Shown: positions 21,858 to 36,939 of the stretch, piece after piece
Position numbering within the stretch: the first letter of the stretch is position 1
Layout of the letters: every line of letters begins with the position of its first letter
Origin: Tanticharoenia sakaeratensis NBRC 103193
Lineage (GTDB): Bacteria; Pseudomonadota; Alphaproteobacteria; Acetobacterales; Acetobacteraceae
NCBI RefSeq assembly: GCF_000963885.1
Contig: NZ_BALE01000048.1
Location: 62,001-126,000 of the forward strand
Reading direction: 5' to 3'
Length of the DNA: 64,000 nt
Notes under the pieces: generated by a model
The model's database searches: none
Seen by the model: only the letters and a program-made list of their open reading frames with translations
Told to the model about the DNA's origin: nothing
Position numbers and translations under genes: made by a program

Positions 21858-21873
21858 TGGTGCCCAAGGGCGG
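21858..21873. repeat. attachment-site direct repeat, left copy
   Basis: TGGTGCCCAAGGGCGG, identical to 36924-36939, the 3' end of tRNA-Phe including CCA. Outside the 16 bp the two flanks differ, so this is the crossover core duplicated on integration. The integrase gene begins 148 bp to the right. Confidence 0.85.
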
Positions 21874-22021
21874 CCGGAAACCGGTGATTCCCGGTGGCTC
21901 TGACTGTTCTGAAACCCTCAGTCTTCTGCTATATTTTCTCCATGCTGATTCTCTCGTTGTATCCCCCCGAATCGGGTAAGCGCATGCCTCAAGAGGGGCG
22001 AGCTGGCGGGCAAGTCTGGTT

Positions 22022-23218
22022 GTGAGTCTGGTTCTGCCAAACAGGCTGACCGCGCGGCAGGTGGCGGCCCTGAAAGAGGGCGCGCTGTGTGATGGCGGCA
22101 ACCTCTGGGCCGTTGCTCGCGGCACGTCGAAGACATGGATGTTCCGCTACACCAGCCCCATCACCGGCAAGCGCCGCGAGATGGGTCTTGGCCCGGTCTT
22201 CGATGTCCCGCTCGCGGAAGCGCGCCGGCTCGCGACCGATGCTCGTCAGGCGATACGTGAAGGCTTCGACCCTATCACGCGCCGGGATCAGCTCAAGGCT
22301 CAGCGGAAGCGAGAGGCCGGCCAACGCTTCCGCGACGTGGCCGATCGCTACATCGACGACCAGGCCCCGGGCTGGCGCGACCCACGGCGGCCGCATAACT
22401 GGCGTCGGTCGCTGGAGATCCACGCCTACGAGCACATCGGCGACAAGGCCGTCACGCATATCCACACGGACGACGTTCTCGCCATCCTGCGGCCCATCTG
22501 GGCGACGACGAACGAGACAGCCGACAAGCTGCGGGGACGCATCGAGCGCATCCTCGATTATGCGCGTACGCACGGCTGGCGGGAGGGCGAGAACCCAGCT
22601 CGATGGCGGGGACATCTGGCGCACATCCTCCCGAAGCCCTCCACGGTCGCGAAGGTCAAGCATCACGCTGCTGTGGAGCGGAAGGACATTGCCCGCGTCA
22701 TGACCGCCTTGGCGTCAGCCAACTCCATGGGCGCGCTGGCGGTGCGGTTCCTCTGCCTGACCGCGACGCGGTCCGGCGAGGCACGCGGTGCGACCTGGGG
22801 CGAGATCGACCTGGGCGCGCGGATCTGGACTATCCCGGCGCATCGCATGAAGGGCGGCCGTGAGCATCGCGTGCCGCTATCGGATGGCACCATGACCATC
22901 CTCGGTGCTGTCCTGCCGCTACGCGATCCGAAGCGCGGAGATCTGGTGTTCCCCGGTGGCAGGCCGGGCAAGCCACTCTCGGACGTGGCGCTGTCCAAGG
23001 CCCTGCATCTGGCGGCCGGGACCAAGGGCGTCACCGTGCACGGCCTGCGGTCCACGTTCCGCGATTGGGTGGCCGAGGAGACGGACTATCCCCGGGAGGT
23101 GGCCGAGATGGCCCTGGCACATGCTATTGGAGATCGGGTTGAGGCGGCCTATCGGCGTGGGGATCTGTTCGAGAAGCGACGGGAGATGATGGGGGCGTGG
23201 GACCTATTCCTCCGCTAG
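22022..23218 (+). CDS. int: P4-type tyrosine integrase
   Basis: Site-specific tyrosine recombinase of 398 residues that should integrate and excise this element at tRNA-Phe. The N-terminus is the DUF4102-type arm-binding domain (NRLTARQVAALKEGALCDGG). Catalytic residues are all present: Arg250 in TATRSGEARG, Lys277, His340 and Arg343 in VHGLRSTFRDW, His367 in ALAHAIGDRVEAAY, and nucleophile Tyr377. The start is GTG 22022; no better ATG exists in frame. It reads inward from the left repeat and should be functional by sequence. Confidence 0.93.
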   Translation: MSLVLPNRLTARQVAALKEGALCDGGNLWAVARGTSKTWMFRYTSPITGKRREMGLGPVFDVPLAEARRLATDARQAIREGFDPITRRDQLKAQRKREAGQRFRDVADRYIDDQAPGWRDPRRPHNWRRSLEIHAYEHIGDKAVTHIHTDDVLAILRPIWATTNETADKLRGRIERILDYARTHGWREGENPARWRGHLAHILPKPSTVAKVKHHAAVERKDIARVMTALASANSMGALAVRFLCLTATRSGEARGATWGEIDLGARIWTIPAHRMKGGREHRVPLSDGTMTILGAVLPLRDPKRGDLVFPGGRPGKPLSDVALSKALHLAAGTKGVTVHGLRSTFRDWVAEETDYPREVAEMALAHAIGDRVEAAYRRGDLFEKRREMMGAWDLFLR

Positions 23219-23228
23219 GATTACTCCT

Positions 23229-23831
23229 CTAGAAGCTGGATGCTCCTCCATCGACGAAACGCGTTAGAAACGGCAAAAAAGGCGTAATGATTGGCATGCA
23301 TGAACTTGACGCCGCAATCAGCTTTTGAAACGCGGTGGCGCGCGCCTGTTTTGTTTCTGAATGCTTTATATCGTCAATGTATCGTATCAGAGAAATTAAT
23401 TCTCCATGCTCCAAACCTGACGATGATAAAGAATCTCTTAGTCTATCAAAACTTACATTGTCACCAACAATATTAGTAGAAGAGTCCGAAGATGAAATAT
23501 TTACTCTAGCCCCATCACCGCTTACCTTTATGTCGTAATGCCCACCTTGGTGCCGAGGAAATGAATCTTTTCGGCGTAGACGAACTTGATAATGCGCTGG
23601 GAATCCACTTTTCGTTTCGAAAAATTTGGGATCAACAACTGTAAATACGTCTTCCCGTCCATTTGGCAATGGGAGCCTTATTTCGTCACCCACACGTACA
23701 TCCGCGTTTTTAACATCATCTATTATTATTAAATCATTCCCTCCGTATCCATCAACCGTACATCTCAGTTCTCCGCTTGGAGACACGACATCGATTTGTT
23801 TTGGTAGATGGAGAGATCTCCAAGGAGACAT
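23229..23831 (-). CDS. AT-rich accessory protein of unknown function
   Basis: A 200-residue protein on the strand opposite to the integrase, ending 10 bp from the integrase stop. It is plainly more AT-rich than its neighbours. The N-terminal half reads as a beta domain (VVSPSGELRCTVDGYG, VGDEIRLPLPNGREDVF, HYQVRLRRKDSFP), the middle is Ser/Asn-rich (ARVNISSSDSSTNIVGD), the C-terminal third is helical and ends in a hydrophobic stretch (CMPIITPFLPFLTRFV). I recognise no named family; similar small proteins occur in prophage cargo positions. Possible defence or immunity gene, by position only. Confidence 0.7.
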   Translation of the reverse strand: MSPWRSLHLPKQIDVVSPSGELRCTVDGYGGNDLIIIDDVKNADVRVGDEIRLPLPNGREDVFTVVDPKFFETKSGFPAHYQVRLRRKDSFPRHQGGHYDIKVSGDGARVNISSSDSSTNIVGDNVSFDRLRDSLSSSGLEHGELISLIRYIDDIKHSETKQARATAFQKLIAASSSCMPIITPFLPFLTRFVDGGASSF

Positions 23832-23913
23832 ATCAGCGTCCTACATTCTCAGTGCTTGCGATTTTAATGGCGACAGTCTGCAATCTTCAAGCGGGATTTT
23901 GTCAGGCGTCGGC

Positions 23914-24162
23914 TTACTCTTTAACTTCCGCCGTCTTCAACCGCACCCCAGCCCCACCCCCGTTTTCCGGCACGAACTCTACCCCGGCGGCCTCTAAGGC
24001 AGAGCGGATGGCGGCGAGGGTGCGGGGATGAGGCGCCCGCTTCCCAGCTTCAAAATCGGCAAGAGTAGCCACCGCGACCTGGGCAGCCTTGGCCAGCTCG
24101 TCTCGCTTCATGCGCAGCATGGCTCGCGCGCCCAGGCACTGCTCAGCTTTTATATCTGACAT
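23914..24162 (-). CDS. XRE-family helix-turn-helix repressor
   Basis: An 82-residue DNA-binding protein with one HTH: LGARAMLRMKRDELAKAAQV then VATLADFEAGKRAPHPRTLA. This is the short Cro/C-protein-like layout, with a C-terminal extension AAGVEFVPENGGGAGVRL typical of the group. It is divergent from the early gene run starting at 24293, and repeats overlap both starts (24149-24208). Probable master repressor of the element. Confidence 0.88.
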   Translation of the reverse strand: MSDIKAEQCLGARAMLRMKRDELAKAAQVAVATLADFEAGKRAPHPRTLAAIRSALEAAGVEFVPENGGGAGVRLKTAEVKE

Positions 24163-24208
24163 TGGCTCTCACGATTGACATATACCCATGTCAGTCTTTA
24201 TATCTGAC
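24149..24208. promoter_or_regulatory. Operator cluster between the XRE gene and the early operon
   Basis: Two exact copies of TTTATATCTGAC lie at 24149-24160 and 24197-24208, 48 bp apart. Between them is the perfect dyad TGACAT-N6-ATGTCA at 24176-24193. The left repeat covers the XRE start codon and the right repeat overlaps the forward -10 region. This is a typical layout for autoregulated repression. Confidence 0.65.
24175..24204 (+). promoter_or_regulatory. Early-operon promoter candidate
   Basis: Consensus -35 TTGACA at 24175-24180 and a -10-like TATATC at 24199-24204, spacing 18. The dyad at 24176 overlaps the -35 element, so repressor binding would block it. It reads toward the gene at 24293. 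Confidence 0.6.
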
Positions 24209-24292
24209 TTCGGCGACAAAAGCCAACACGGCCGGACGGGAAGGTTGCAGCTCCCGCGCCCGGCCTAACCCCAACCGAGAGGATCCTCGGCT

Positions 24293-24490
24293 ATGGCTGA
24301 AAACGGCTATACCACGACGGCCGCGAACGTGCGGCACGTTACTCCTGGCAGAATTGCCCTCGCCTGCGTGGCTGGCACGCTCGAGGCGCTGGGCGTCGGC
24401 GCGCTGGCAGTGATCACACTCCTGACGTTCCTGCATCCGGATCACCCCATCAGCCACGCGGTTGAGTGCGTGATGGAGGCGAGCCGATGA
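24293..24490 (+). CDS. Small membrane protein, first gene of the early run
   Basis: A 65-residue protein with one or two hydrophobic segments (IALACVAGTLEALGVGALAVITLLTFL) and no family match. It has GAGAGGA upstream and its stop overlaps the next start (ATGA). It is the first gene after the repressed promoter. Confidence 0.65.
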   Translation: MAENGYTTTAANVRHVTPGRIALACVAGTLEALGVGALAVITLLTFLHPDHPISHAVECVMEASR

Positions 24491-24798
24491 GCGCCCCTCT
24501 CACGCTGCCCGATCAGGCCCGCGCCGCCTGCCGCCGGATCGACGGGGCATGGCACCTGCTCATCTGTCTGCAAGAGCGGGCAGACCACATCGCGGAATGG
24601 GTGAGAATTACCGAAAATAAACTGGCTCATAATGAGCCAGTTTCTCGAGCCAAGGAAGGACGAGGAAATACCGGCGGCGTTCGGGCCGCCGTTCGGGAAC
24701 TCGGGATCGAACGAAATGAGGCCCAGCGCGCCGTCAAGATCGCAGGGATATCAGAGGAGGCCCGTGCGGCAGCCGATGAGGCCGGGAGGGATGCATAA
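24487..24798 (+). CDS. Early element protein with ParB-like segment
   Basis: A 103-residue protein. ATG 24487 gives a 4-base overlap with the previous gene, so it is preferred to the upstream in-frame start. The C-terminal half (VRAAVRELGIERNEAQRAVKIAGISEEARAAADEAG) is like the helix-turn-helix segment of ParB-type and phage regulatory proteins. The N-terminal half is helical and unrecognised. The role is probably DNA-linked, but unproven. Confidence 0.65.
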   Translation: MSAPLTLPDQARAACRRIDGAWHLLICLQERADHIAEWVRITENKLAHNEPVSRAKEGRGNTGGVRAAVRELGIERNEAQRAVKIAGISEEARAAADEAGRDA

Positions 24799-25043
24799 TG
24801 AGTGCCCACCTGACGTACACGCCCGCGCGGATCGACGCGATCGACCAGGCCGCGCTTGAGCTATCGCACCTTGGCGCGTTGCTGGAATGGACCGGACACG
24901 CCGTAACCATAGCCGACATCGAACTGGAAGGACCGGGCCTGTCGCGTCTCGGCTGCGCGCTGCAATGGGCGGGCGGCGAGATCGAACGTCGCTGCGCGAT
25001 TATCAACAAAGCCACGTCGAACGTCGGGGAGTGGAAGCCGTGA
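24798..25043 (+). CDS. Small conserved-looking early protein, paralogue of the 25413 gene
   Basis: An 81-residue protein starting at ATG 24798, overlapping the previous stop by one base. The N-terminal TPARIDAIDQAALELSHLG resembles TPDRIIAIEAAAEEVGIIG of the protein at 25413, and both end in an ER-AI helix, so they look like diverged duplicates. No function known. Confidence 0.6.
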   Translation: MSAHLTYTPARIDAIDQAALELSHLGALLEWTGHAVTIADIELEGPGLSRLGCALQWAGGEIERRCAIINKATSNVGEWKP

Positions 25044-25252
25044 TAGATCCCGGAACCCTGACCGCCGACGAAAAAGAAGCGATCCATGACCGCCGGTCGC
25101 CCACGACTGCGCTGCATGACTGCAAGCACATGGCGGCCCTGCTGTGCGAGCTGGCGCGCAGCGATCGGGACATTCAGGAAGCCCCGTCCGTGTTCTGGCT
25201 TGCGAACCGGCTGTGCGACCGCCTCGACCAGCTAGAGGACAGCACGCCATGA
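25040..25252 (+). CDS. Small early protein, function unknown
   Basis: A 70-residue frame using GTG 25040, which overlaps the previous stop (GTGA). Sequence is helical and charged (LTADEKEAIHDRRSPTTALHD, LANRLCDRLDQLEDSTP). No domain recognised. The tight overlap on both sides is the main support. Confidence 0.55.
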   Translation: MIDPGTLTADEKEAIHDRRSPTTALHDCKHMAALLCELARSDRDIQEAPSVFWLANRLCDRLDQLEDSTP

Positions 25253-25416
25253 CCCGGCGCACCTGTCCGCCGTTCCTGCGCCGGCATCCTGTGGTCCGTG
25301 GCGTGGCGCTGCTGGTTCTGCTGCCCGTCACGAACGGCATCCTTCGGTTCTGCAACTGGTGGATGTCCGCCGTCGCGCCGTGGGTGCTGGCCATCGCACG
25401 TGAGGGCAGAGCATGA
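25249..25416 (+). CDS. Small membrane protein, function unknown
   Basis: A 55-residue protein starting in a 4-base overlap (ATGA). It has a basic N-terminus (MTRRTCPPFLRRHP), a hydrophobic segment GVALLVLLPVTNGILRF, and a second weak one SAVAPWVLAI. No family known. Confidence 0.55.
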   Translation: MTRRTCPPFLRRHPVVRGVALLVLLPVTNGILRFCNWWMSAVAPWVLAIAREGRA

Positions 25417-25601
25417 CCCGCACCCGTCCCTGCACGCCTGATCGCATCATTGCGATCGAAGCGGCCGCCGAGGAGGTCGGAATCATCGGCAACATCGTCG
25501 CGGCGATTGGAACGGGCGGAAAGGCTCTGCCCGACGAGCTGGAATGGCTGGCCGGGCATCTGGAGCGGTGTCACGTGGCGATCCTGGATGCGCTACGATG
25601 A
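25413..25601 (+). CDS. Small early protein, paralogue of the 24798 gene
   Basis: A 62-residue protein in ATGA overlap with the previous gene. Composition and the TPDRIIAIEAAAEE start resemble the 81-residue protein at 24798. C-terminal helix ELEWLAGHLERCHVAILDAL. Function unknown. Confidence 0.55.
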   Translation: MTRTRPCTPDRIIAIEAAAEEVGIIGNIVAAIGTGGKALPDELEWLAGHLERCHVAILDALR

Positions 25602-25634
25602 TCGTCGAATTTGACTGCATGGAAAGCCAACAAG

Positions 25635-26396
25635 ATGACCGAGTCACTGGGAAATCACAGGGAATCAAAGAGAGCGCGGCCCATGATCTACGTGCCTCGC
25701 GGGTTCACGCCACTGAAAACGTGCGTCGTGTCTCTCGCCCAGCGGCGCAGGCCGGATCTGCCATTCTCGGACTACCTGCTCTATCTCGATGCCCAGTTGA
25801 TGACTGCCTTTGATCCTCATCGCACTGCGCGTGGCTACGATCCTTTCTGTGACGCACCCAGCAGCAAAGCGATGCACAATGTCTCTCTGATGGAGCAGGT
25901 CTACTGCTTCACCAACCTGGGGCATGCGCGCAACGATCTTCGCTTGGCTCTGGCAGAAAATGAAATGCCAGCCGTTGGCATGCTGGCAGATGGGGACCTT
26001 CATGAAATCCCACAGAAATATTGGCGAACAGATGCCGGGGCATGGCGCCTTCAGTTTGTCGACCGGAAAGACGACTATATCCATGTCTTTATCAACACAG
26101 ATACTTTCCAGAAGTGGCTTGAAGGCGGCGGTGCGGAAGAAGCAGTCGAGGACAGCAGCGCGCCGAAAATGTCTGCCGATACCAGAAGGCACGTCATGGA
26201 GTTGCTGATGCGCGCGCTGGAAACGCCAGATGGGCGCAACACCCCCAAGCCGCAGCATTTCGCCCGCGTCCAGATGACCACCGCCATCACAAATTCCGAT
26301 TTTAATTCGATCTGGGCGGAAATTGCAAAAAAGCCAGGATACGAAGGAATGGTCAAAGCTGGCAGAAAACCGAGAAGAACAATTGATGATGTCTAA
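25635..26396 (+). CDS. Element protein of unknown function, 253 residues
   Basis: I list ATG 25635; a TTG at 25611 and an ATG at 25684 (MIYVPRGFTPLKTCVV) are alternatives, and the last begins the better-conserved-looking part. No motif is recognisable. The middle contains KYWRTDAGAWRLQFVDRKDDYIHVFI, a beta-rich stretch, and the end reads FNSIWAEIAKKPGYEGMVKAGRKPRRT, a basic tail. The codon pattern resembles that of the preceding early genes, but base composition drops toward the 3' end. It ends in a strong AT-rich dyad (26394-26416). Confidence 0.65.
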   Translation: MTESLGNHRESKRARPMIYVPRGFTPLKTCVVSLAQRRRPDLPFSDYLLYLDAQLMTAFDPHRTARGYDPFCDAPSSKAMHNVSLMEQVYCFTNLGHARNDLRLALAENEMPAVGMLADGDLHEIPQKYWRTDAGAWRLQFVDRKDDYIHVFINTDTFQKWLEGGGAEEAVEDSSAPKMSADTRRHVMELLMRALETPDGRNTPKPQHFARVQMTTAITNSDFNSIWAEIAKKPGYEGMVKAGRKPRRTIDDV

Positions 26397-26416: not shown

Positions 26417-26514
26417 TCATCTTAATTGTTGTGATTTTTTCTTTCGATTCAACGCCTTACAACATGAGCAACACCGAGCGTCTCGGTGGCCAGTTTTACC
26501 TCTTGGAGGATTTC

Positions 26515-26718
26515 ATGACGAGACAGGAGCCCCTGGGTGCCTACGCGTCGATCGCCGACGTGCAGCGCCACACCAGTTTGAGCCGTCCGACGATCTATCG
26601 ACTGATCGAACGGGGCGCGTTTGAAGCAATCAAAGTCGGGCGCAACACGCGGATCGTGACCGCCTCGGTCGAGGCGTATTTTGCAAGCCTGCCGCGGTTG
26701 CCTGCGAAGGCAGCCTGA
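26515..26718 (+). CDS. AlpA/excisionase-type helix-turn-helix protein
   Basis: A 67-residue DNA-binding protein. ATG 26515 has an excellent GGAGGA 5 bases upstream. It shows the MerR/Xis-like winged HTH: SIADVQRHTSLSRPTIYRLIERGAF then AIKVGRNTRIV. AlpA-type proteins activate the integrase or act as directionality factors in P4-like elements; here it sits well inside the element, upstream of the replication genes, so either role fits. Confidence 0.85.
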   Translation: MTRQEPLGAYASIADVQRHTSLSRPTIYRLIERGAFEAIKVGRNTRIVTASVEAYFASLPRLPAKAA

Positions 26719-26853: not shown

Positions 26854-27108
26854 ATGCCGAGCTTGAAAAAGCGCGGGCGCCCGAGCTGCGTCCGCATGAT
26901 GGATGATACCCGCACACTGCGCGGCCGAAAGGCGATCGCGGCGGCCCTTGGCTTGCCTGTCGATGGCTCCGGCTGGCGCCTGGGCGAGCGTCGGGTGCGT
27001 TACCTGGAGGACCGGCACGGTCTGCCCGTCTGCCGTGACGCCCGTACGGTCTGCCTGTCGATGCCTGCCCTTCTGCAATGGCAGAGCGCGCAGGAGGCCG
27101 CACGATGA
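26854..27108 (+). CDS. Small DNA-binding-like element protein
   Basis: An 84-residue basic protein (MPSLKKRGRPSCVRMM start) containing RKAIAAALGLPVDGSGWRLGERRVRYLEDRHGLPVC, which reads like a helix-turn-helix followed by a beta wing. No named family. It overlaps the next start (ATGA). About 135 bp of gene-free sequence precede it. Confidence 0.6.
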   Translation: MPSLKKRGRPSCVRMMDDTRTLRGRKAIAAALGLPVDGSGWRLGERRVRYLEDRHGLPVCRDARTVCLSMPALLQWQSAQEAAR

Positions 27109-27539
27109 TCCCCCTGCACAATCCAATCTACACTGGCCAGGTGAACGGCCGCGCTGTGCGGTTCTTCCGTGCGCCTAACGGTGTCGTGGCATTGCCGTGG
27201 CATTCGGTCGCCGATCTGGTCAGCGCTGCCGGCCTGCCGTTGGACGCTCAACGCGTGTTCATCGACGCGACGCGCTCTGGCCCGTTTCAGGATGCCGTGC
27301 GCACCGTCAACACCGACGCCGGCAAGTGCCTGATCGCCCCGCACTTTGTGGCACAGGGCACGATCGGCGCATTCAAGAAGACCGGATTCCTTCCGGATAA
27401 TGATGAATTCGACACGGCTTTTTGCCTCGCCGGTTGTGAAGCCGCGAATGTGCTGCACGAGGGCTTGAGCCCGGCAGAGCGCATGCGGGCCGTCATCCAG
27501 ATGGGGCGCAATCATCTTGGCCTGGAGGATGAGGAATGA
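27105..27539 (+). CDS. Element protein of unknown function, 144 residues
   Basis: The start ATG 27105 overlaps the previous stop. N-terminus VNGRAVRFFRAPNGVVALPWHSVADLV resembles the first part of phage antirepressor/Bro-N-like domains (x-F-R--NG-v-LPW---D), but the match is short. The rest (DTAFCLAGCEAANVLHEGLSPAERMRAV) is helical. Could be a regulator of the element. The next gene again overlaps by 4 bases. Confidence 0.6.
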   Translation: MIPLHNPIYTGQVNGRAVRFFRAPNGVVALPWHSVADLVSAAGLPLDAQRVFIDATRSGPFQDAVRTVNTDAGKCLIAPHFVAQGTIGAFKKTGFLPDNDEFDTAFCLAGCEAANVLHEGLSPAERMRAVIQMGRNHLGLEDEE

Positions 27540-27757: not shown

Positions 27758-28011
27758 GCGCCGGTCCGGAAACAGCAGGTCTGCAGCGCGCCGCCGAGAT
27801 CTGCGATCAGTTTGAGAGCGAGAATTTCGCGGTCTCACTCGATTTTCAGAAGTCATCCGTCAGCAATCCGGATTTTCGGGTGCTCGGCGGCGACGGGTCG
27901 TGGTCGCTGTCTTTCGCTGACCATGCTCACATCCATTGCTGCAAGGCACACGCAGCGCGGGAGATCGCAGCGTTTATCAGGCGCATGATTGATGAAGGGA
28001 GTGAGCATTGA
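27754..28011 (+). CDS. Small element protein, function unknown
   Basis: An 85-residue protein from ATG 27754 (overlap ATGA). It contains a beta-like middle (FRVLGGDGSWSLSFADHAHIHC) and a C-terminal helix. Its stop overlaps the TTG start of the primase gene, so it is probably translated together with it. Confidence 0.55.
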   Translation: MSAGPETAGLQRAAEICDQFESENFAVSLDFQKSSVSNPDFRVLGGDGSWSLSFADHAHIHCCKAHAAREIAAFIRRMIDEGSEH

Positions 28012-30083
28012 ACACCCCCTTCACCATTGACAGCCTGGCATCTGCGCACCGCTGGGTTGCCTGGCAGAACGAAGACGCGCACGGCCGGGTCACGAAAGTG
28101 CCCTATTCGCCACTCGGTGGTCGCGCGCATGCTGACAAGCCGCGCACCTGGGGCACGCGGGATGCAGCCGAGATCCAGCTAGGCAAGTTGCCGCGCCCGC
28201 ACACCCTCGGTGGCCTGGGCATCGAGCTGGGCGCGCACGAGGACGGCATAGCGATCGGCGGCGTAGATCTCGACACCTGCCGCAATCCCGAAACCGGTGA
28301 AATCTCTGCCTGGGCTCGGCAAGTGATTGATCTGTTCGATTCCTATTGCGAGGTTTCGCCGTCCGGAACAGGAGCCAAGATCTTCTTTGCCTTCGACCCG
28401 GGCGATCTTTCGGCGATCCGGCAGGCGATGGGCGGCAGGGACACCGGTCGTCAGTTCAAGGTGAGTTCGACGGGCAACCACCCGGAAGGGCTCGAAATCT
28501 ATATCGGCGGTCGCTACTTCGCGGTGACAGGAGACCTGCTACACGGCAGCACGCCGGAAATCCGCCCTGTCAGCGTGGCGACGATCGCAACCCTGGTGCA
28601 GCAGATCGGGCCAGCCCTTTCGGCACAGAAGCAGTCCTACACGCTCAAATCGCTCGTGTCGCAGCCAGCCGGCGACGGCAGCCGCAGCGCCATGGCCTTC
28701 AAGGTTGCGGCTCAGACGGTGCGCGCCGGTGGGGACTTTGAGGATTTCGTGAGCGGCTTGGATGCAGACCCGAACACAGCCTCGTGGAAGGCCGAGAAAG
28801 GGCACGTGAACGGCGATCGGGAATTGCTGCGGACATGGGAGCGCGCCGCCCAGATGGTGGCGGATAGCCCCAAGCGACAGCGTCCACGGCACGACTGGCT
28901 GGGCAAGCTCGAACTCGACACCAACTCCGAGCCCCGCGGGAACCTCGCGAATGGCATGATCGCACTGCGCGAGGCGCCGGAGTTGGCACGGCTGTTCGCT
29001 TATGACGAAATGCTCGGTGCGCCGATCTTGCAAGCGCCGGTGCCGAGTGGGGTTGTTCAGCACAATGAGCAGGACTTCGCGCCACGCCCGGTGCGAGATG
29101 CCGACGTTTCCGCAGTGCAGGAATGGTTGCAACTCAACGGCGTCGGCAAGATCTCCAAGGATACGACGCACCAAGCGGTTGACCTGCGGGCGACAGAACG
29201 CGGCTTCCATCCAGTGCGCGGCTGGCTCCAATCCTTGCGATGGGACGGCACGGAGCGGCTTGCAGGCTGGCTGAGCACCTATCTCGGCGCCGAGGACACG
29301 CCCTATGCACGGGGCATCGGACGCATGTTCATGATCGCCATGGTAGCGCGCGTCATGCAGCCGGGCTGCAAGGCAGATTATATGATGATCCTGGAAGGCA
29401 AACAGGGCCTGCGGAAATCGACCGCCTGCGCGATCCTCGGTGGCGAGTGGTTCAGCGACAACCTTCCGGACATCCGGTCGGCTGGCAAAGATGTGCCGCA
29501 GCATATCAACGGCAAATGGCTGATCGAGGTCGCCGAGATGTCGGCGCTCGACAAGTCCGAGGCGGCTGCGCTCAAAGCGTTCATCACCCGAGCGGTTGAG
29601 CGGTATCGTCCCAGCTTCGGGCGAAAGGAAATCATCCAGCCCCGCCAGTGCGTGTTCATCGGCACAACGAACAAGGAAGCCTATCTGCGTGACGAGACCG
29701 GAGGTCGACGGTTCTGGCCCGTGAAGGTCAACCGCATCGATACGGATGCGCTCAGCCGGGACCGGGCCCAGTTGTTCGCGGAGGCGGTCGCCGCGTTTCA
29801 GGCTCGCGAGAAGTGGTGGCCGGACTCGGGATTTGAGGCAGACCACATCGCCCCCCAGCAGGAGGCGCGATACGAGGCGGATGCCTGGGAGGAGGCCGTG
29901 TCTGGATATCTTGCGGGGAAGCGTAGGGTGATGCTGCTTGAGGTCGCAAGAGATGGACTGTTCATCGACACGCCTAAGCTGGGAACACACGATCAGCGTC
30001 GGATCTCAGCCATCCTGGAGCGGATGGGGTGGCAGAGGGGAGTCAAGACGAACAGCGGAGTCCCATGGTTGCGGGTGAGATAA
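28008..30083 (+). CDS. Primase-polymerase/VapE-type replication protein
   Basis: Replication protein of 691 residues, the core of the element. The N-terminal part is an archaeo-eukaryotic primase-like domain: HRWVAWQNEDAHGRVTKVPYSP, the acidic GVDLDTCRN (metal-binding D-x-D) near 85, and SPSGTGAKIFFAF near 118. The C-terminal part is a VapE-type helicase: ADYMMILEGKQGLRKSTACA (Walker A, about 455-475), GKWLIEVAEMSALDKSE (Walker B), FIGTTNKEAYLRDETGGRRFWPV (sensor 1 and arginine finger area). Start is TTG 28008, overlapping the previous stop (TTGA). VapE-type proteins are hallmarks of phage satellites. The probable origin lies 630 bp downstream. Confidence 0.88.
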   Translation: MNTPFTIDSLASAHRWVAWQNEDAHGRVTKVPYSPLGGRAHADKPRTWGTRDAAEIQLGKLPRPHTLGGLGIELGAHEDGIAIGGVDLDTCRNPETGEISAWARQVIDLFDSYCEVSPSGTGAKIFFAFDPGDLSAIRQAMGGRDTGRQFKVSSTGNHPEGLEIYIGGRYFAVTGDLLHGSTPEIRPVSVATIATLVQQIGPALSAQKQSYTLKSLVSQPAGDGSRSAMAFKVAAQTVRAGGDFEDFVSGLDADPNTASWKAEKGHVNGDRELLRTWERAAQMVADSPKRQRPRHDWLGKLELDTNSEPRGNLANGMIALREAPELARLFAYDEMLGAPILQAPVPSGVVQHNEQDFAPRPVRDADVSAVQEWLQLNGVGKISKDTTHQAVDLRATERGFHPVRGWLQSLRWDGTERLAGWLSTYLGAEDTPYARGIGRMFMIAMVARVMQPGCKADYMMILEGKQGLRKSTACAILGGEWFSDNLPDIRSAGKDVPQHINGKWLIEVAEMSALDKSEAAALKAFITRAVERYRPSFGRKEIIQPRQCVFIGTTNKEAYLRDETGGRRFWPVKVNRIDTDALSRDRAQLFAEAVAAFQAREKWWPDSGFEADHIAPQQEARYEADAWEEAVSGYLAGKRRVMLLEVARDGLFIDTPKLGTHDQRRISAILERMGWQRGVKTNSGVPWLRVR

Positions 30084-30106: not shown

Positions 30107-30697
30107 TCAGAATCGCTCATCGCGGAAATCGCGCAACCTCAGTGCCGGCTCGAATAAAACCGAAAGCTTTTTATCGAGAATATCTAAAAGTTCGAAATCC
30201 AGTTCGGATGCTTCTTTTGCAAGCTTGGACTGATCGATCGCCGCCTGGTGGCTCAGGATTGCCGGTTCGTAAGCTCGGAGTGATCTAGAAAGTGCAAATG
30301 ATTTTATAACTTTGTGTCTTATTTCCAGTATCTTATTCGCGCACTCGCGCTCGAAAATAAAGCGCGCTTGTTCACTAGACGCCCTCATTCGTTCAATCTT
30401 GACCGGAAATTCTGCGTCTAACTTATCGGAGAAGACCGCATGGGCGATGGCAGCATGAAACGCCTCGTAGACTTCAAAGCGTCTATCAAACAAGTCTGTT
30501 ACTATTTTTTCTTCAGCTATTGTTTTCTGCCGCTTAGCAATACGTCGTTGTTGATCAGCAATAAACAACGTGCCGCCGCCGACCATAAACGCGACGAACG
30601 CGTTCAGAAGTGATTCAGCTTTGATCCCGAAAAAAGTCACAGCGCCCGGCGCGGCCGCGCATGCTGCTTCTGCCAGTGGGTGTGGAGCGATCATCAA
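30107..30697 (-). CDS. AT-rich membrane-anchored protein of unknown function
   Basis: A 196-residue protein opposite in strand to its neighbours and clearly AT-richer. One N-terminal membrane helix (SLLNAFVAFMVGGGTLFIAD) is followed by a basic stretch and a long helical cytosolic region (RRFEVYEAFHAAIAHAVF, LDFELLDILDKKLSVLF). No catalytic motif. Position between the replication gene and the origin, reversed orientation and composition mark it as cargo, possibly a defence or exclusion gene, which is not shown. Confidence 0.7.
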   Translation of the reverse strand: MMIAPHPLAEAACAAAPGAVTFFGIKAESLLNAFVAFMVGGGTLFIADQQRRIAKRQKTIAEEKIVTDLFDRRFEVYEAFHAAIAHAVFSDKLDAEFPVKIERMRASSEQARFIFERECANKILEIRHKVIKSFALSRSLRAYEPAILSHQAAIDQSKLAKEASELDFELLDILDKKLSVLFEPALRLRDFRDERF

Positions 30698-30711: not shown

Positions 30712-30737
30712 GTGACGCAGTGACGCATAGTGACGCA
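30712..30737. repeat. Iteron triplet, forward orientation
   Basis: Three copies of GTGACGCA at 30712-30719, 30720-30727 and 30730-30737. They face a matching inverted triplet at 30793-30817 across 55 bp. Confidence 0.85.
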
Positions 30738-30792
30738 CTTTCTTATAGTGGGGGTCTGTCGAAGTCTTACGCTATACCGCTCTATAGGGAAG

Positions 30793-30818
30793 TGCGTCAC
30801 CTGCGTCATGTGCGTCAC
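30793..30818. repeat. Iteron triplet, reverse orientation
   Basis: TGCGTCA (reverse complement of TGACGCA) at 30793-30799, 30802-30808 and 30811-30817; the first and third extend to TGCGTCAC. Spacing of 9 bp between starts. Confidence 0.85.
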
Positions 30819-31347: not shown

Positions 31348-31359
31348 ATGAGGCCCGCC

Positions 31360-31917
31360 ATGCGCATCGGATACGCCCGCACCAGCACCATCGAACAGGA
31401 CGCCGGCCTTAATGGCCAGGTGCGTGAGCTGGACGCGGCAGGGTGCGAGAAGATCTTCCGCGAGAAGGTCAGTGGCACGAAGACCGACCGTCCGCAGCTC
31501 CAGGCAGCGCTCGACCATCTGCGTGACGGTGACACGCTGGTCATCACCAAGCCCGACCGTATGGCCCGCTCGACGGCCGATCTGCTGGCCTTCGTGAAGG
31601 CCGTGCAGGCCAAAGGCGCATCGCTGGTCATCCTGTCCATGGGTGGCCAGATGCTCGATACCGGCAACCCCACCTCCAAGCTGATGTTGACCATGCTGGC
31701 GGCCGTGGCCGAGTTCGAGCGCGACCTGATGCTGGAGCGGCAGCGCGAGGGCATTGCCAAGGCGCAGGCCGAGGGCCGTTACAAGGGCCGGCCGCGCAGT
31801 GCGCTGCTCAAGGCGGACCAGGTGCGGGCACTCAAAGCCGAAGGGCTCAGGCCGGCTGAGATCGCCAAGCGCCTCGAGATCTCCCGTGCGTCTGTCTATC
31901 GGGCGTTAGAAGCGTAA
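31360..31917 (+). CDS. Serine recombinase (resolvase/invertase family)
   Basis: Small serine recombinase of 185 residues. ATG 31360 has GAGG 6 bases upstream; the upstream ATG 31348 is an alternative. N-terminal catalytic domain: RIGYARTSTIEQDAGL with the nucleophile Ser at about residue 8-9, FREKVSGTKTDRPQLQAAL, and ITKPDRMARSTADLL with the catalytic Arg pair. The C-terminal HTH is GLRPAEIAKRLEISRASVYRAL. All family features are intact. It may resolve multimers of the replicating element; with its TGAGAC sites it could also be a separate insertion. Confidence 0.9.
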   Translation: MRIGYARTSTIEQDAGLNGQVRELDAAGCEKIFREKVSGTKTDRPQLQAALDHLRDGDTLVITKPDRMARSTADLLAFVKAVQAKGASLVILSMGGQMLDTGNPTSKLMLTMLAAVAEFERDLMLERQREGIAKAQAEGRYKGRPRSALLKADQVRALKAEGLRPAEIAKRLEISRASVYRALEA

Positions 31918-32055: not shown

Positions 32056-32277
32056 ATGCCGTCCGCACATAACGCACAGACGCCCGAATGCATGTCCATG
32101 CGCGAGGCAGCACGCCGCGTTGGGATCAGCGCCGCCACGCTGTGCCGCGTGATTGCGCGTGGCACCGGACCCCGCTCCGTGCAGATCGGCAGGCGCCGTC
32201 TGATCCGTGCCGATCACCTTGCAGAATGGCTCGACCAGCGTTCGACGGCGCCGGTCGCATCGGATACCGCATCATGA
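32056..32277 (+). CDS. Excisionase-family helix-turn-helix protein
   Basis: A 73-residue protein with a MerR/Xis-like winged HTH: SMREAARRVGISAATLCRVIARGTGPRSVQIGRRRLIRADHLAEWL. It is the second such protein in the element, besides 26515. Here it heads the packaging gene run (next start overlaps, ATGA), so it may control late genes rather than excision. Confidence 0.8.
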   Translation: MPSAHNAQTPECMSMREAARRVGISAATLCRVIARGTGPRSVQIGRRRLIRADHLAEWLDQRSTAPVASDTAS

Positions 32278-32558
32278 GTCACACCACAGCCCTCGAGCAG
32301 CAGGCCCAGCACTTTGGTCTGCGCGACATGGATCTTCTGAAACTGGCCAAGCCGGGGCTGTCCCCAAAAGACGCCCTGACCGACCTGGTCACACGCTATC
32401 CGGGCGCATTCGCCCGTCCCCTGAACGGCATGTCTCGCGAGCAATATGCAGCGGCCCGGAAGCAGTTTCTCGACGGCGCCTATAGCAACGGCCTGAAACG
32501 GGTCGAGGCAGCGCACATGGAGAAGCTGGAAGCCAAATACCGGAGTATCCATCGGTGA
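32274..32558 (+). CDS. Element protein of unknown function, 94 residues
   Basis: Starts ATG 32274 in a 4-base overlap. Charged helical sequence (LKLAKPGLSPKDALTDLVTRYPGAF, REQYAAARKQFLDGAY, HMEKLEAKYRSIHR). No recognised domain; similar short proteins sit before terminase genes in many prophages. Confidence 0.6.
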   Translation: MSHTTALEQQAQHFGLRDMDLLKLAKPGLSPKDALTDLVTRYPGAFARPLNGMSREQYAAARKQFLDGAYSNGLKRVEAAHMEKLEAKYRSIHR

Positions 32559-33052
32559 GTGCCGAGACACACGCGCTACAGCAGCAGGTCCAAGCCGCCT
32601 ATCAGGCCGCCCGCGCCCGTGAGAATGCGCCCTGGCAAATCCTCGACAGCCGCTGGAACGTTACCCGGCACCGGATCGGCCAGTCTCGGCAGCGGCAATG
32701 CCCCGTCAACAGTGCGGAAGATCGCGATGCCGCTGCACGCGAGCAGCAGTGGCTTGAGGACGCTTTGGCAGAGTTCAGGCGCTGGCGCGACATGCCTGCC
32801 GATCGGATGGCAGCCGCTGCGCACACAGCCATGACCCCTACACAGGAGCCCGCATCCGCCGATCAGACGGCTCGCGTCCTGTTCGATGGGCTGCATGCGC
32901 GGGGTATCCGGATCGAGGTCGGCCACAAGGACCGGATCAGTGTCTGCCCGGCGCGCCTGCTCACCGACGCTGACAAGGCGCAACTGACCACGCTCCGGGT
33001 CGAGATCGCGACCATCTGGCGGCAGCGCAACGACGTCTGGACGGTCGGCTGA
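32555..33052 (+). CDS. Element protein with C-terminal TubC-docking-like segment
   Basis: A 165-residue protein using GTG 32555 (overlap GTGA with the previous stop). The N-terminal two thirds is helical and charged. Residues about 107-155 read TARVLFDGLHARGIRIEVG, then RISVCPARLLTDADKAQL, then TLRVEIATIWRQR, a pattern close to the TubC N-terminal docking domain (L--G-----------LT------L---K-ei). That domain is also found in isolated proteins of mobile elements. Function unknown. Confidence 0.6.
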   Translation: MSAETHALQQQVQAAYQAARARENAPWQILDSRWNVTRHRIGQSRQRQCPVNSAEDRDAAAREQQWLEDALAEFRRWRDMPADRMAAAAHTAMTPTQEPASADQTARVLFDGLHARGIRIEVGHKDRISVCPARLLTDADKAQLTTLRVEIATIWRQRNDVWTVG

Positions 33053-33122
33053 AAAATGGACGTTTCCCCCCTTTATCCAATCGTCCGGGCGCTCAAATTC
33101 GACGTTATCGGGAGCGCCTGAA

Positions 33123-33620
33123 ATGGGTCGCGTCTGCTCCATCTGCACGCATCCCCGGCGCCGCGACATCGACCGTCTGCTGGTCAATCCGACCCTGAGC
33201 ATGCGGGAGGTCGCACAGGCCATTCCCGGCGTCGGTGAAAAGAGCCTCGAGCGCCATCGCAACAACCATCTGATGCCACGCATCCAGAAAGCCGAGGGCT
33301 TGACCCGCGAGGAAGTCGGGGAGGCGGTCGGCCTGGTCGGACAGATGGACGAGCTGCGCGAGCGTGCCATGGAATTGCTCGACAAGGCAGAAGACAGCGG
33401 CGACCTGCGCACTGCCATCGCGGCGATCCGCGAGGCCCGAGGCGTGCTGGACAGTCTCGCGCGCCTGTCAGGCGAGGGCAGCAGACCGGGAACGGTCATC
33501 AACGTCTTCAATGCGCCCGCCTGGGTGTCCGTGCAGACGAACATCATGGCAGCGCTCATGCCTTTTCCGGATGCGCGGCAGGCTGTCGTGAAGGCGCTGG
33601 AAGGCGTCACCAGTGACTGA
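33123..33620 (+). CDS. Small terminase-like protein
   Basis: A 165-residue protein with an N-terminal Cys/His-type motif and HTH (CSICTHPRRRDIDRLLVNP, LSMREVAQAIPGVGEKSLERHRNNHL), a helical middle, and a short C-terminal segment. This is a common architecture for proteins placed just before large terminases, so I read it as the DNA-recognition (small) subunit. It overlaps the start of the ATPase gene by 8 bases. The call rests largely on position. Confidence 0.65.
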   Translation: MGRVCSICTHPRRRDIDRLLVNPTLSMREVAQAIPGVGEKSLERHRNNHLMPRIQKAEGLTREEVGEAVGLVGQMDELRERAMELLDKAEDSGDLRTAIAAIREARGVLDSLARLSGEGSRPGTVINVFNAPAWVSVQTNIMAALMPFPDARQAVVKALEGVTSD

Positions 33621-34386
33621 CGCACCCGGGGACATCGCACGGGAACTGCGGCATGCACTGGACCCCGTGGCGTTCTCGGTCGAGCGGTTGGGGTTTGTCC
33701 CGGACGCCTGGCAAGCCGATGTCCTGCGCTCGCCCAGTCGGCGCATTCTGCTGAACTGCACCCGGCAGGCGGGCAAGACGAGCACGACAGCCGTTCTGGC
33801 ACTGCACACGGCCATTTATCAGCCGCGCGCCCTCATTCTCCTGTTCTCGAAGGCGCAGCGGCAGAGTTCCGAGCTTCTGGCGAAGATCCACGGGCACATC
33901 AACACGATGCAGCAGCCTCCAAACCTTGTGAAAGAGGCAGCCACCGAGTTGAAGTTGCTGAACGGCTCGCGCATCGTGTCCCTGCCGGGCGACGGCGACA
34001 GCATCCGAGGCTATTCCGCTCCCAGCCTGATTGTCGAGGACGAGGCAGCCTTCGTCAGTGACGAGCTGTACGAAGCATTTTTGCCGATGCTGGCCACCAG
34101 CAACGGGCGTCTGGTCCTGATGAGCACGCCGAACGGCAAGCGTGGTCACTTCTATCATGCCTGGGCTGGACTTTCGTCAAAATGGCAGCGCGAGAGCGTC
34201 ACCGCAGATCAGGTCAGCCGGATCAGCGCCGACTACATCGACGAGATGCGGTCGGAATACGGACCGTGGAAATTCCGGCAGGAATTCTACTGCAAATTTG
34301 TCGAGGCCGACGATCAGTTTTTCTCCGATGCGGCAATCGAGCGGGCGTTTTCCCGCGATGTTCCGCTCCTGCAACTCGCTTTTTGA
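33613..34386 (+). CDS. Large terminase, ATPase part
   Basis: A 257-residue protein from GTG 33613. It is the packaging motor half of a terminase: Walker A LLNCTRQAGKTSTTAVLAL near residue 55, and Walker B LIVEDEAAFVSDELYEAF near 135, then LMSTPNGKRGHFYHAW (motif III). The frame ends FSRDVPLLQLAF at TGA 34384. The nuclease half follows in the same reading frame 15 bp later. Together they are about 510 residues, a normal TerL length, so a single ancestral gene split by a stop is likely. Confidence 0.85.
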   Translation: MTDAPGDIARELRHALDPVAFSVERLGFVPDAWQADVLRSPSRRILLNCTRQAGKTSTTAVLALHTAIYQPRALILLFSKAQRQSSELLAKIHGHINTMQQPPNLVKEAATELKLLNGSRIVSLPGDGDSIRGYSAPSLIVEDEAAFVSDELYEAFLPMLATSNGRLVLMSTPNGKRGHFYHAWAGLSSKWQRESVTADQVSRISADYIDEMRSEYGPWKFRQEFYCKFVEADDQFFSDAAIERAFSRDVPLLQLAF

Positions 34387-34401
34387 GGACGCCCCCTCAT
34401 C

Positions 34402-35145
34402 ATGGGCTTTTGGAACACGACACATGCTCAAGGTTCGGAATGGGCCGAGGATCGCTCGGAAATCACAGCCGGACGCCTGACCGGGTATGTCGTCGGCCTC
34501 GACCTCGGCAAAAGCCAGGATTTCACGGCACTGTGCGTTGCCGAGATCTGGGCATGTGAACGTCTTCGCTGGCAGCGGGCGAAGTTCGAGGCTCTGGCGC
34601 AGGTCACGCGGCGTATTCCAACGCACCGCTACCGCGTCGTGAACGTGCATCGTTACCCACGGGGCACGCCTTATCCCGAAATCGGACGATCGGTGCAGAA
34701 AGTCATCCACCAGTTGCCGACGCAGGAAGATGACGCGGCCCTGTTCGTCGACAAGACCGGCGTGGGCGCGCCCGTGGTCGATGCCATGCGGGAGGCTGGG
34801 CTGCGGCTGACCGGGGTCAGCATCACGGGCGGGAGCCGCGTAAACCGTATCTCAGGCCAGGATGTGAACGTGCCGAAGTCGGTGCTGGCGTCCGCGCTCG
34901 ACATTGCGTTGGCTGAGGATCGTCTGGAGTTGACCAGTCAGGCTGACGCATCAAACGCCCTTCGGGCCGAGTTGCAGGGCTTCCGCGTGAAGAAGACGGT
35001 CCACGGAAACGAGACCATGGAAGCGTGGCGCGAAGGTCTGCACGACGATCTGGTGCTCGCAACGGCACTCGCTATCTGGGGCGCTGACAACCGACCGCAG
35101 CCTGCACGCTACACCACTGCATATGCCGGGTTCATGGGACGATGA
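34402..35145 (+). CDS. Large terminase, RNase H-like nuclease part
   Basis: A 247-residue protein, separated from the ATPase half by one TGA and four sense codons, same frame. The nuclease acidic residues are visible: YVVGLDLGKSQDFTALCV near 32, ALFVDKTGVGAPVVDAM near 115, and EGLHDDLVLATALAIWG near 218. TGAGGA at the upstream stop could serve as a ribosome site for ATG 34402, so separate translation is possible. Either a truly two-gene terminase or a nonsense-interrupted one. Confidence 0.82.
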   Translation: MGFWNTTHAQGSEWAEDRSEITAGRLTGYVVGLDLGKSQDFTALCVAEIWACERLRWQRAKFEALAQVTRRIPTHRYRVVNVHRYPRGTPYPEIGRSVQKVIHQLPTQEDDAALFVDKTGVGAPVVDAMREAGLRLTGVSITGGSRVNRISGQDVNVPKSVLASALDIALAEDRLELTSQADASNALRAELQGFRVKKTVHGNETMEAWREGLHDDLVLATALAIWGADNRPQPARYTTAYAGFMGR

Positions 35146-35192
35146 CGATGATCTGTCTTGTACCCTGGTCAACCCCGTACTACCGTCGCGCC

Positions 35193-35543
35193 ATGCGCAA
35201 GCCTGCTGCCCTCTGCCTCGCCCTGCTGTCCCTCTCCGGTTGCGTCGCGTGGAGCGGTCGCATGCCTGGTACGACCGACGCCCACTGCATGCGCATGATG
35301 ATGCGGCACGGCGCGGGCAACGCCGGCCCGCTCGACTTCACCGGTGCCGCAAGCCGCTGTGTGCAGTTCGCCCACCCTGTCACCGAGGGTGATAATCCCC
35401 CCTATGCGCCGCTTGACCTGCGAGATGACCCGGCCTTGCAGGCCATGGCCGAGAACCCGGCCGTCAACGATGCCGGATATCCGTTCATCCCCCGCAATTC
35501 CACGACCCCGCGTGTCGGCGCGCGCTGGCAGATCGTTCACTGA
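35193..35543 (+). CDS. Small lipoprotein of the packaging region
   Basis: A 116-residue protein from ATG 35193, MRKPAALCLALLSLSGC, a type II signal with lipobox LSGC (Cys17). The upstream start at 35142 would place an odd hydrophobic leader and is less likely. The mature part is short and without domain. A phage lipoprotein (Rz1-like or exclusion) is possible; nothing supports a specific role. Confidence 0.65.
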   Translation: MRKPAALCLALLSLSGCVAWSGRMPGTTDAHCMRMMMRHGAGNAGPLDFTGAASRCVQFAHPVTEGDNPPYAPLDLRDDPALQAMAENPAVNDAGYPFIPRNSTTPRVGARWQIVH

Positions 35544-35551
35544 GAGGCAGC

Positions 35552-36472
35552 ATGTCCGGAACTCTAAACTTCTCGGCGGCCGTGGGCGCGATTGCCAATA
35601 TCAGCGCAAGTGATCCCGTCATCGTTGGCACCGTGTCTCTGACGGGCATGGAGGTGCCTTCGGAACTGACGGTCGGCGGCCAGCAGAAGCTTGTTATCCA
35701 CAGGCTCCCGGGTGGCGAGGAACTGATCGATGTCGCAGGCAACGACCCTGATCGGCTGGAACTGCATGGCTATTTCGTCGGCCCCTATGCCTACGCCCGC
35801 GCCCAGGAATTGGAAGGCATCCGCAAGCAGGGCCTTCCTGTTACGTTCTCGGTCGCCGGGCTGTCGTGGCGCGTGTTCGTCGCGGCCTACCAGTATACCT
35901 ACCAGTCCAAGGGCGCGGTGATCCCGTACCGGTTGACACTCGAACGGCAGGAAACGGCACGCAACAAGGTGCCAGCCACAACGAAGGAGCAGTCACAATC
36001 AGTCGGCAACGACATCGGGACTGCCCTCACCTCGCTCGCCGGAGCGGTGGGCAATATCTCGCAGACGGCAAGCGACTTCACCGGGCAGGCGCAGACGGTC
36101 ATCGGGCAGGTGACGCCGATTGCTAACCTGGTCGGAGCGGGATCAGTCGTGGCGAAAGCTCAGAATGCCCTGGAACAGGCGCAAGCCGTCACGACGGCAG
36201 GCACAGACCTCGGCTCCGCTCCGGCTGGGCTCGCAACCTTGCAAGACAACCTGAGCGCGGCCGGTGACAGCCTGACGACGGCAATCCAGGCAACGGGCCA
36301 GAACCTCGAGAACATCCAGTTCGACGGTTCGGCGGCTAGTTTACTGGCCATGGCGCAGAACGCGCAGATCCAGTCAGCGGCGGCCGATGCCGGCGCTCTC
36401 GTCAACCGGGCGAACCGTAATGCAACGACGGCAGGAGGGGGCACGCAGACCGACCCGCTGGTGCATTCATGA
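35552..36472 (+). CDS. Phage tail/baseplate-like protein
   Basis: A 306-residue protein with GAGG upstream. The N-terminal 130 residues look like a phage tail-associated beta domain: MEVPSELTVGGQQKLVIHRLPGG, LELHGYFVGPYAYARAQELEGIRKQGLPVTF, VFVAAYQYTYQSKGAVIPYRLTLE; this is the pattern of baseplate/tail proteins that contain a LysM-less XkdP-like domain. From 150 on it is Ala/Gln/Thr-rich and helical (fibre or tape-like). It is the only recognisable virion-type gene. Identity is inferred from pattern. Confidence 0.6.
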   Translation: MSGTLNFSAAVGAIANISASDPVIVGTVSLTGMEVPSELTVGGQQKLVIHRLPGGEELIDVAGNDPDRLELHGYFVGPYAYARAQELEGIRKQGLPVTFSVAGLSWRVFVAAYQYTYQSKGAVIPYRLTLERQETARNKVPATTKEQSQSVGNDIGTALTSLAGAVGNISQTASDFTGQAQTVIGQVTPIANLVGAGSVVAKAQNALEQAQAVTTAGTDLGSAPAGLATLQDNLSAAGDSLTTAIQATGQNLENIQFDGSAASLLAMAQNAQIQSAAADAGALVNRANRNATTAGGGTQTDPLVHS

Positions 36473-36735
36473 TCGGACCTGCAGACCGTAGGATTTACAC
36501 TGACCCCACCGAATGGGGCGAGCAGATCGGAAGGGACTTTGCCCACCTGGAGAGCGGCCAGATGCAGGCGGACCTTGAAGGTCTGGTGTCCTTCAACCGC
36601 GCTCGCCTTCAGGGGATCGGGGCATATCCGGCTGACATCGAGCGGTTCCTCGACGTGATGTCCAAATCAGCAACAGCGTTTTATGCGGTCTATCGTGCCC
36701 CGCCCGAAACGCCCCCCTGCGATCCTCAACCCTGA
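36469..36735 (+). CDS. Small protein downstream of the tail-like gene
   Basis: An 88-residue protein in ATGA overlap with the tail-like gene. Helical (EWGEQIGRDFAHLESGQMQADLEGL, DIERFLDVMSKSATAFYAVY). No family recognised. Last gene of the element; the following 190 bp to the tRNA are gene-free. Confidence 0.55.
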   Translation: MIGPADRRIYTDPTEWGEQIGRDFAHLESGQMQADLEGLVSFNRARLQGIGAYPADIERFLDVMSKSATAFYAVYRAPPETPPCDPQP

Positions 36736-36923
36736 GATAATGGATTTGCCTGCCGAGCTGCCGAATAGCACGCCGCATACAGAGGCTCTGAAAAGCTAGT
36801 AAGTGTCTCTTACAGCGTCCCTACGGCCCCGGCTAGATCGGTCGTCAAGAGGGGCGCAGTGGCGGGCGGACTTTGCCGCCAGAGCGCTAAGTCTCTGTTA
36901 TTACACTGATTTTTTGAGAAAAA

Positions 36924-36939
36924 TGGTGCCCAAGGGCGG
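36924..36939. repeat. attachment-site direct repeat, right copy (in tRNA-Phe)
   Basis: TGGTGCCCAAGGGCGG, identical to 21858-21873; on the minus strand it is the last 16 bases of tRNA-Phe including CCA. Confidence 0.85.

Follow-up and report, generated by a model that had tools for sequence, protein, structure and literature searches.

Boundaries and general features of the element

A 15,082-bp element occupies positions 21858–36939 of the window, a 64,000-nucleotide stretch of the 3.5-Mb genome of Tanticharoenia sakaeratensis NBRC 103193 (contig NZ_BALE01000048.1, positions 62,001–126,000), where a first-pass annotation made without database searches had described a phage satellite inserted at tRNA-Phe. 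The element carries a small-terminase-like gene, a large terminase (TerL) encoded as two genes and a tail-like gene, and it is probably a phage satellite in integrated form, belonging to a family not found in the literature searched. It is bounded by a 16-bp repeat, TGGTGCCCAAGGGCGG, whose only two copies in the window start at 21858 and 36924. The left copy (attL, 21858–21873) repeats the 3′ end of tRNA-Phe, and the right copy (attR, 36924–36939) lies within the intact tRNA-Phe gene (36924–36999, reverse strand) at the right end of the element. Among 927 random pairs of like-sized stretches from the window, used as a control, the longest exact match was 13; the annotated repeat at both ends is borne out. 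The GC content of the element is 60.9%, compared with 65.4% and 65.6% in the flanks.

A PHROGs profile scan of 25 open reading frames (ORFs) of the window gave no match to capsid, portal or lysis families, in agreement with the annotation, which had listed none. The other features that it had named, an intact tyrosine integrase, an XRE repressor with operator, AlpA/Xis, a primase-VapE gene, an iteron origin and a tail-like protein, were likewise recovered, the operator and the origin at the level of sequence. The element is integrative, has its own genes for mobility and replication and is without a full set of particle genes, the general hallmark of phage satellites.

A large terminase encoded by two genes

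The packaging module consists of three forward-strand genes. The first (33123–33620) encodes a protein with a CxxC..H start, a helix-turn-helix (HTH) and a helical hairpin, and is labeled TerS-like from its place and make-up; the annotated small terminase-like gene is therefore present, and its identification as TerS is putative. The second encodes the TerL ATPase (TerLN, 33613–34386), which matches PF03237 above the cut-off, phrog_7579, and the solved TerL ATPase domains 4zni and gp17, and the third encodes the TerL nuclease (TerLC, 34402–35145), which matches PF17289 at the cut-off, phrog_27743, and the solved TerL nuclease domain 5m1f. Walker-type and RNase-H-type motifs, which we take to have their usual roles in the two halves, are retained across both.

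In the window the two TerL genes share a frame, the ATPase gene stopping at 34386 and the nuclease gene beginning at 34402 after a gap of 15 bp; taken alone, this arrangement could be the result of a nonsense mutation. This explanation was rejected because the nuclease of relatives lies in another frame or behind an intervening gene, and the separate genes of the relatives indicate a two-gene form. The first four genomes found (G188, G018, G284 and G165) have two TerL genes, with an extra gene between them in G188 (Novacetimonas maltaceti, the 5493-bp contig also designated L115), and PHROGs holds separate families for the ATPase and nuclease halves. A separate nuclease gene lies within 700 bp of the ATPase gene at 90 of 141 loci matching the ATPase profile (80 viral, being the best 80 of at least 281 confirmed, and 61 genomic, near-copies included), and in 71 of the 90 it is in another frame. 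The two genes overlap at 48 of these split loci, are separated by 0–30 bp at 20, and by more at 22; of the remaining ATPase loci, 19 are fused and 32 are partial or lack a nuclease match nearby. Judging from these sequences, the TerL of the window is a natural two-gene form and not a product of decay. The annotated split large terminase thus holds as a two-part TerL, which should not be read as damage.

The ratio of nonsynonymous to synonymous polymorphism (pN/pS) in the close group of relatives is 0.04–0.30 for TerLN (28 pairs) and 0.20–0.39 for TerLC (21 pairs), synonymous sites being near saturation in many pairs. Acetobacter sicerae was excluded from the TerLC and TerS sets because its TerLC looks frameshifted. 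By these ratios both TerL genes are under purifying selection, which is not as expected of a drifting prophage. In a quick TerLN tree of 132 rows, a single clade with a Shimodaira–Hasegawa-like approximate likelihood ratio test (SH-aLRT) value of 100 unites the eight acetic acid bacterial elements. Fused and split TerL are intermixed in this tree and other satellite-like elements are scattered; its deep forks are poorly supported, and the satellite-like elements may have a single origin.

Three further observations concern these genes. In elements of Novacetimonas and Acetobacter the two TerL genes are separated by a gene of 131–138 aa (L115:2430–2825, L120:4104–4517 and L195:9272–9685), and the L115 and L195 copies have no PHROGs match. 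A second nuclease-profile gene resembling a duplication follows the first in L123, L124, L129, L058, L059 and L043. Split TerL also occurs in contigs binned to the methanogenic archaea Methanothrix, Methanosaeta and Methanoregula (L126, L134, L136 and L148).

Related elements in acetic acid bacteria

A scan of genome contigs for the TerL ATPase yielded 62 loci, seven of which are 76–82% identical: N. maltaceti, Gluconobacter japonicus, A. sicerae, A. estunensis (two strains, AV380 and LMG 1626), A. musti and A. sacchari. As far as the contigs extend, the common order is integrase, XRE (reverse strand), AlpA-like, primase, AlpA-like, 94-aa, 165-aa, TerS-like, TerL ATPase and TerL nuclease genes; the left half of the A. 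sicerae element, like that of A. musti, is on a separate contig, and the linkage is assumed. Matches to the 94-aa gene were not seen in A. sacchari, nor were matches to this gene and the second AlpA in LMG 1626. The replication gene is of the VapE type in the window and A. musti, and is replaced by a Prim-Pol and AAA_25 pair in AV380, which was profile-scanned; G. japonicus and A. sacchari have frame pairs resembling it. Elements on single contigs measure 8.8–15.1 kb. A RuvC-like Holliday junction resolvase gene, not found in the window, follows the TerL nuclease in four Acetobacter elements (L117, L118:11867–12382, L119 and L120).

A tRNA gene on the opposite strand follows the element in five relatives (Ala-CGC, Ser, Asn, Ala-GGC and Asn). 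An exact repeat of the tRNA was present in six of seven elements tested, the window included, and measures 16–20 bp in the five acetic acid bacterial ones; beyond the integrase it is 17 bp in G. japonicus, 17 bp in AV380, 20 bp in LMG 1626, 18 bp in A. musti and 50 bp in Roseicella. The test excluded A. sacchari and Novacetimonas, whose contigs have no tRNA. The annotation had suggested searching related genomes for the same gene order at tRNA-Phe; in the relatives the order is nearly the same, and the site varies among tRNA genes. At the tRNA-Asn gene of AV380 the LMG 1626 flanks are found at 97% (655 bp) and 95% (2.7 kb) identity with about 0.8 kb containing integrase fragments between them (L201:656–1480), indicating that the element is absent there and has left a scar. 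At the tRNA-Ala site of AV380, compared likewise with LMG 1626, only the right flank was matched.

Tail genes and resident phiKX1-like prophages

The nuclease gene is followed on the forward strand by a 133-aa gene (35142–35543) and by a tail-like gene, here called tail306 (35552–36472). The product of tail306 matches phrog_36820 (E 1e-81) and is 49% identical to a phiKX1 protein whose gene lies between the tape measure and hub-like tail/baseplate genes. The 133-aa protein, the start of which we read as possibly lipoprotein-like, is 56% identical over residues 36–133 to the product of the gene preceding the tail306 homologue in the C54 prophage, one of two prophages of the same genome. These prophages, on contigs C54 (19–47 kb) and C47 (195–212 kb), carry further tail306 copies of 52% and 45% identity and match 20 and 17, respectively, of 30 phiKX1 proteins compared, including portal, coat, sheath and baseplate proteins. 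Queries with the phiKX1 TerL and TerS gave no match in either prophage; by Pfam, their TerL is encoded in frames 443 and 445 aa long. No relative of tail306 was found in the viral contigs.

Different tail genes are found in other elements. In A. sicerae a member of the phiKX1 hub-like family (phrog_52) lies on the tRNA side of TerL and is 82% and 81% identical to two other loci of the same genome with phiKX1-like neighbors; its position inside the element is assumed because the end of that element is not fixed. In the same place A. musti has two such genes, a 36% homologue of the phiKX1 gene behind the sheath gene, which by position is a tube gene, and one that resembles a tape measure gene through weak matches. 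Tape-measure and tail-chaperone matches of types other than phiKX1 are present in the elements of Nevskiaceae and Nakamurella described below. Together with the window, these make five elements with inner-tail-type genes. G. japonicus has no room for a tail gene, and no tail match was seen in LMG 1626.

Split large terminases in other hosts and in phages

Repeats linked to tRNA genes were found at six of nine loci tested: Roseicella (50 bp), Magnetococcales (51 bp), a Nevskiaceae metagenome-assembled genome (51 bp), Gemmatimonadota (37 bp), Nakamurella (23 bp) and L124 (14 bp, near chance). All six repeat-bounded loci enclose an integrase and a split TerL; no such repeat was found at L123, L153 or A. 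sicerae. Among 71 selected ORFs downstream of viral split TerL genes, five portal families were matched by 7, 5, 4, 3 and 2 ORFs (an ORF may recur) and others of the 71 matched head families, which places split TerL in a large group of ordinary phages. For a second set of 43 ORFs, drawn almost entirely from genome contigs, the first 25 of 50 matched families included no portal family; within the same 25 there were one major-head family and two families of head-tail adaptors, each with a single member. Element rows bounded by tRNA genes, when scanned singly, were without those head and adaptor matches (L120:4104–4517 and L124:12443–13033 stand outside the single scans). The elements thus appear to retain the motor of split-TerL phages without any head that could be found.

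Comparison with known systems

The element resembles the phage-inducible chromosomal islands (PICIs), among them the Staphylococcus aureus pathogenicity islands, in its size, and has the specific attachment site, integrase, regulator, primase and iteron origin 3′ of the replication gene described for them, with two iteron sets and sometimes terS (PMC6092414); it differs in having a complete TerL as two genes and a tail part. Gram-negative PICIs are described as transcribed in one direction only (PMC6092414), whereas here the XRE gene and genes of 200 and 196 aa are on the reverse strand. Capsid-forming PICIs (cf-PICIs) likewise have their own TerS and TerL, and some have putative tape measure protein (TMP) genes, as do PLE-like elements (PMC12987554); however, cf-PICIs encode a portal, protease and capsid (PMC10690885), none of which is found among the 25 ORFs of the window. 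The Streptomyces satellites MulchRoom and MiniFlayer also have their own TerS and TerL but are described with portal and capsid and without a primase (PMC10690885). The PICI-like element (PLE) of Vibrio cholerae, compared by description, may be similar in that it encodes its own inner-tail parts (TMP, the tail assembly chaperone TAC, and hub), genes of inner-tail type being present in some of the elements described here. PLE satellites are reported to form chimeric tails that contain the satellite's tape measure and hub (PMC12987554, Nature 2026); the helper of PLE is the lytic phage ICP1, and the word terminase is absent from the main text of PMC12987554.

The nearest TerL of isolated phages in the collection are those of Meiothermus phage MMP17 and Thermus phage Riverbug (44% identity over the ATPase part), which have a homologue of the TerS-like gene directly upstream of TerL but differ in having a single TerL of 415–417 aa with portal, head and tail genes downstream. 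Jug phages also have terL in pieces, but these are separated by group I introns whose splicing was observed (PMC12363816), whereas the gap here is 15 bp and 68 of the 90 split loci overlap or have gaps of 0–30 bp. Known satellites are here compared through such published descriptions. No report of a two-gene TerL other than by introns, of a satellite lacking a capsid but having a full TerL, or of satellites in acetic acid bacteria was found in the open-licence literature, covered in part and through titles and the beginnings of abstracts; with coverage this partial, the absence is weakly supported. The literature on acetic acid bacteria examined contained the terms "phage-inducible chromosomal island" and "phage satellite" nowhere, and the word satellite is absent from the phiKX1 paper (PMC8566455).

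Interpretation of the element

The nearly constant gene order of the relatives, in which no portal or capsid was found, their location at different tRNA genes, the selection on packaging genes, and the co-resident phiKX1-type phages support the satellite reading of the first-pass annotation. That annotation had named as a refutation the presence of the missing structural genes in relatives' elements, deleted here alone; the subset of relatives' ORFs scanned gave no such result. Its own alternative, a decayed prophage, is now weak given the shared reduced layout and the purifying selection on TerL. Under this alternative the element is the drifting remnant of a split-TerL phage that has been stripped of its head genes and most of its tail genes. 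In its favor are the portal and head genes behind split TerL in viral contigs, the presence of a tail gene in the element, the apparently broken TerLC of A. sicerae and the AV380 scar with its integrase fragments. It is nevertheless very unlikely, since the same reduced layout recurs in several genera at various tRNA genes, the TerLN of the eight elements are one well-supported clade of the quick tree, both TerL genes are under purifying selection, and the tail gene is of a different phage type, that of phiKX1, which has a terminase annotated as a single gene.

The motor genes might instead serve for attack, with the TerL halves or TerS jamming the helper portal in defense of the cell; the element would then be transferred in some other way. 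Satellites are known from published accounts to hamper helper packaging and, by Tai systems, tail assembly (PMC10690885, PMC11364771), but the retention of TerS and of both TerL halves with their motifs is more than a jammer should need and none of 10 cargo proteins matched PADLOC, so that such a role seems quite unlikely. A PICI that acquired TerL, and hence no separate family, is also unlikely, if slightly less so: the integrase, AlpA, primase with two iteron sets behind it and TerS-like gene follow the PICI plan, and the repressor gene is opposed as in Gram-positive PICIs (PMC6092414), yet the TerL halves are present across the whole close group and form their own clade, and PICIs, by their published descriptions, carry terS at most, with portal and capsid added in cf-PICIs.

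Several findings weigh against an integrated satellite of a separate family. The TerS-like protein has no family match of its own in Pfam or PHROGs, a fold search with its model (predicted local distance difference test, pLDDT, 71) gave 54 matches with none at E < 0.001, its homologue upstream of TerL in Riverbug is annotated as hypothetical while a downstream gene is named TerS, and the pN/pS of TerS, 0.05 at the lowest, reaches 0.64 (21 pairs). The pN/pS of tail306 is 0.58 against both prophage copies, and its model is poor (mean pLDDT 52). Among the relatives, the 94- and 165-aa genes of N. maltaceti follow TerLC instead of preceding TerS, no primase match was seen in the 8.8-kb LMG 1626 element, and A. 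sicerae has a TerL nuclease that looks frameshifted near its start (L117:3881–4643) and no tRNA repeat. ATPase-only frames are rare, occurring in 5 of 299 genomes of the family, its own included, and at E 1e-20 in 2 of 245 relatives of a second draw, again with its own; relatives' ORFs were scanned for structural families in part, and the source genus is represented by one genome, so that there is no empty tRNA-Phe site to compare.

If the element is a satellite as proposed, an active phiKX1-like myophage, of which the genome has two such prophages, would induce it, the integrase and AlpA would excise it, and it would replicate from its iterons. Its TerS and two-part motor would then dock on helper procapsids and fill them with satellite DNA, and tail306 would replace or join the helper copy to give a chimeric tail, as in PLE satellites. 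The TerS label, the role of tail306 and the use of a helper are the weakest links of this scheme. More tentatively, it is quite possible that the elements constitute a class of satellites of about 9–16 kb that have a full two-subunit motor and chosen inner-tail parts (tail306, hub-like, tube-like, tape measure and chaperone genes across these elements) but no head, take shell and outer tail from a helper, and arose repeatedly from split-TerL phages in acetic acid bacteria, Magnetococcales, Nevskiaceae, Gemmatimonadota and Actinomycetota. Were the satellite reading correct, satellites would redirect packaging by a whole motor, beyond TerS or the cutting site alone, and satellite-made tail parts would not be limited to PLEs. 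Acetic acid bacteria, which serve in vinegar and cellulose production, would gain a candidate satellite–helper pair, and the separate ATPase and nuclease genes offer natural constructs for studying how TerL couples pulling to cutting.

Integration, regulation and replication genes

The tyrosine integrase gene (398 aa, 22022–23218, forward strand) matches PF22022, PF13356 and PF00589 above the cut-off and is 60–73% identical to its top homologue in every one of seven genomes of acetic acid bacteria. The XRE repressor-like gene (23914–24162, reverse strand) matches PF01381 (HTH_3) above the cut-off and has homologues of 49–84% identity at the same position in six relatives. Two operator-like 24-nt repeats (24143–24214) start at 24143 and 24191, and their core, TATATCTGAC, is also present near xre in two of five relatives inspected (L191 and L195). 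AlpA/Xis is represented by two AlpA-like HTH_17 genes on the forward strand, an excisionase-like one at 26509–26718 (PF12728, phrog_66) and another at 32056–32277, which also matches the TerS family phrog_57 weakly (E 4e-4).

The primase-VapE helicase gene (28008–30083, forward strand) matches PF05272 (E 5.2e-79) and phrog_256. About 630 bp past it, behind a 196-aa gene, TGACGCA occurs six times in 105 bp (30713–30817), three times per strand around a 55-bp center, which resembles the origin plan described for PICIs (PMC6092414) and marks a likely origin. In 400 random 1260-bp stretches of the window the best 7-mer count was four in 14, five in none and six in six, the last presumably being stretches that contain the iteron site itself. 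Five elements, that of the window included, have repeated 7-mers behind the primase; in the others these are different words, with five copies in G. japonicus, AV380 and A. musti and four in A. sacchari, a number that can be due to chance. None was found in LMG 1626, and at most three in L032 and Roseicella.

Two reverse-strand cargo genes, one of 200 aa (23229–23831, phrog_16834) and the 196-aa gene between primase and iterons (30107–30697), have no Pfam or PADLOC match. A serine resolvase/invertase gene (31348–31917, forward strand) matches PF00239 and has 68% homologues in L115 and L116, and a conserved 153-aa gene with no role assigned (27078–27539, forward strand) has homologues of 55–63% identity in L190, L191 and L194.

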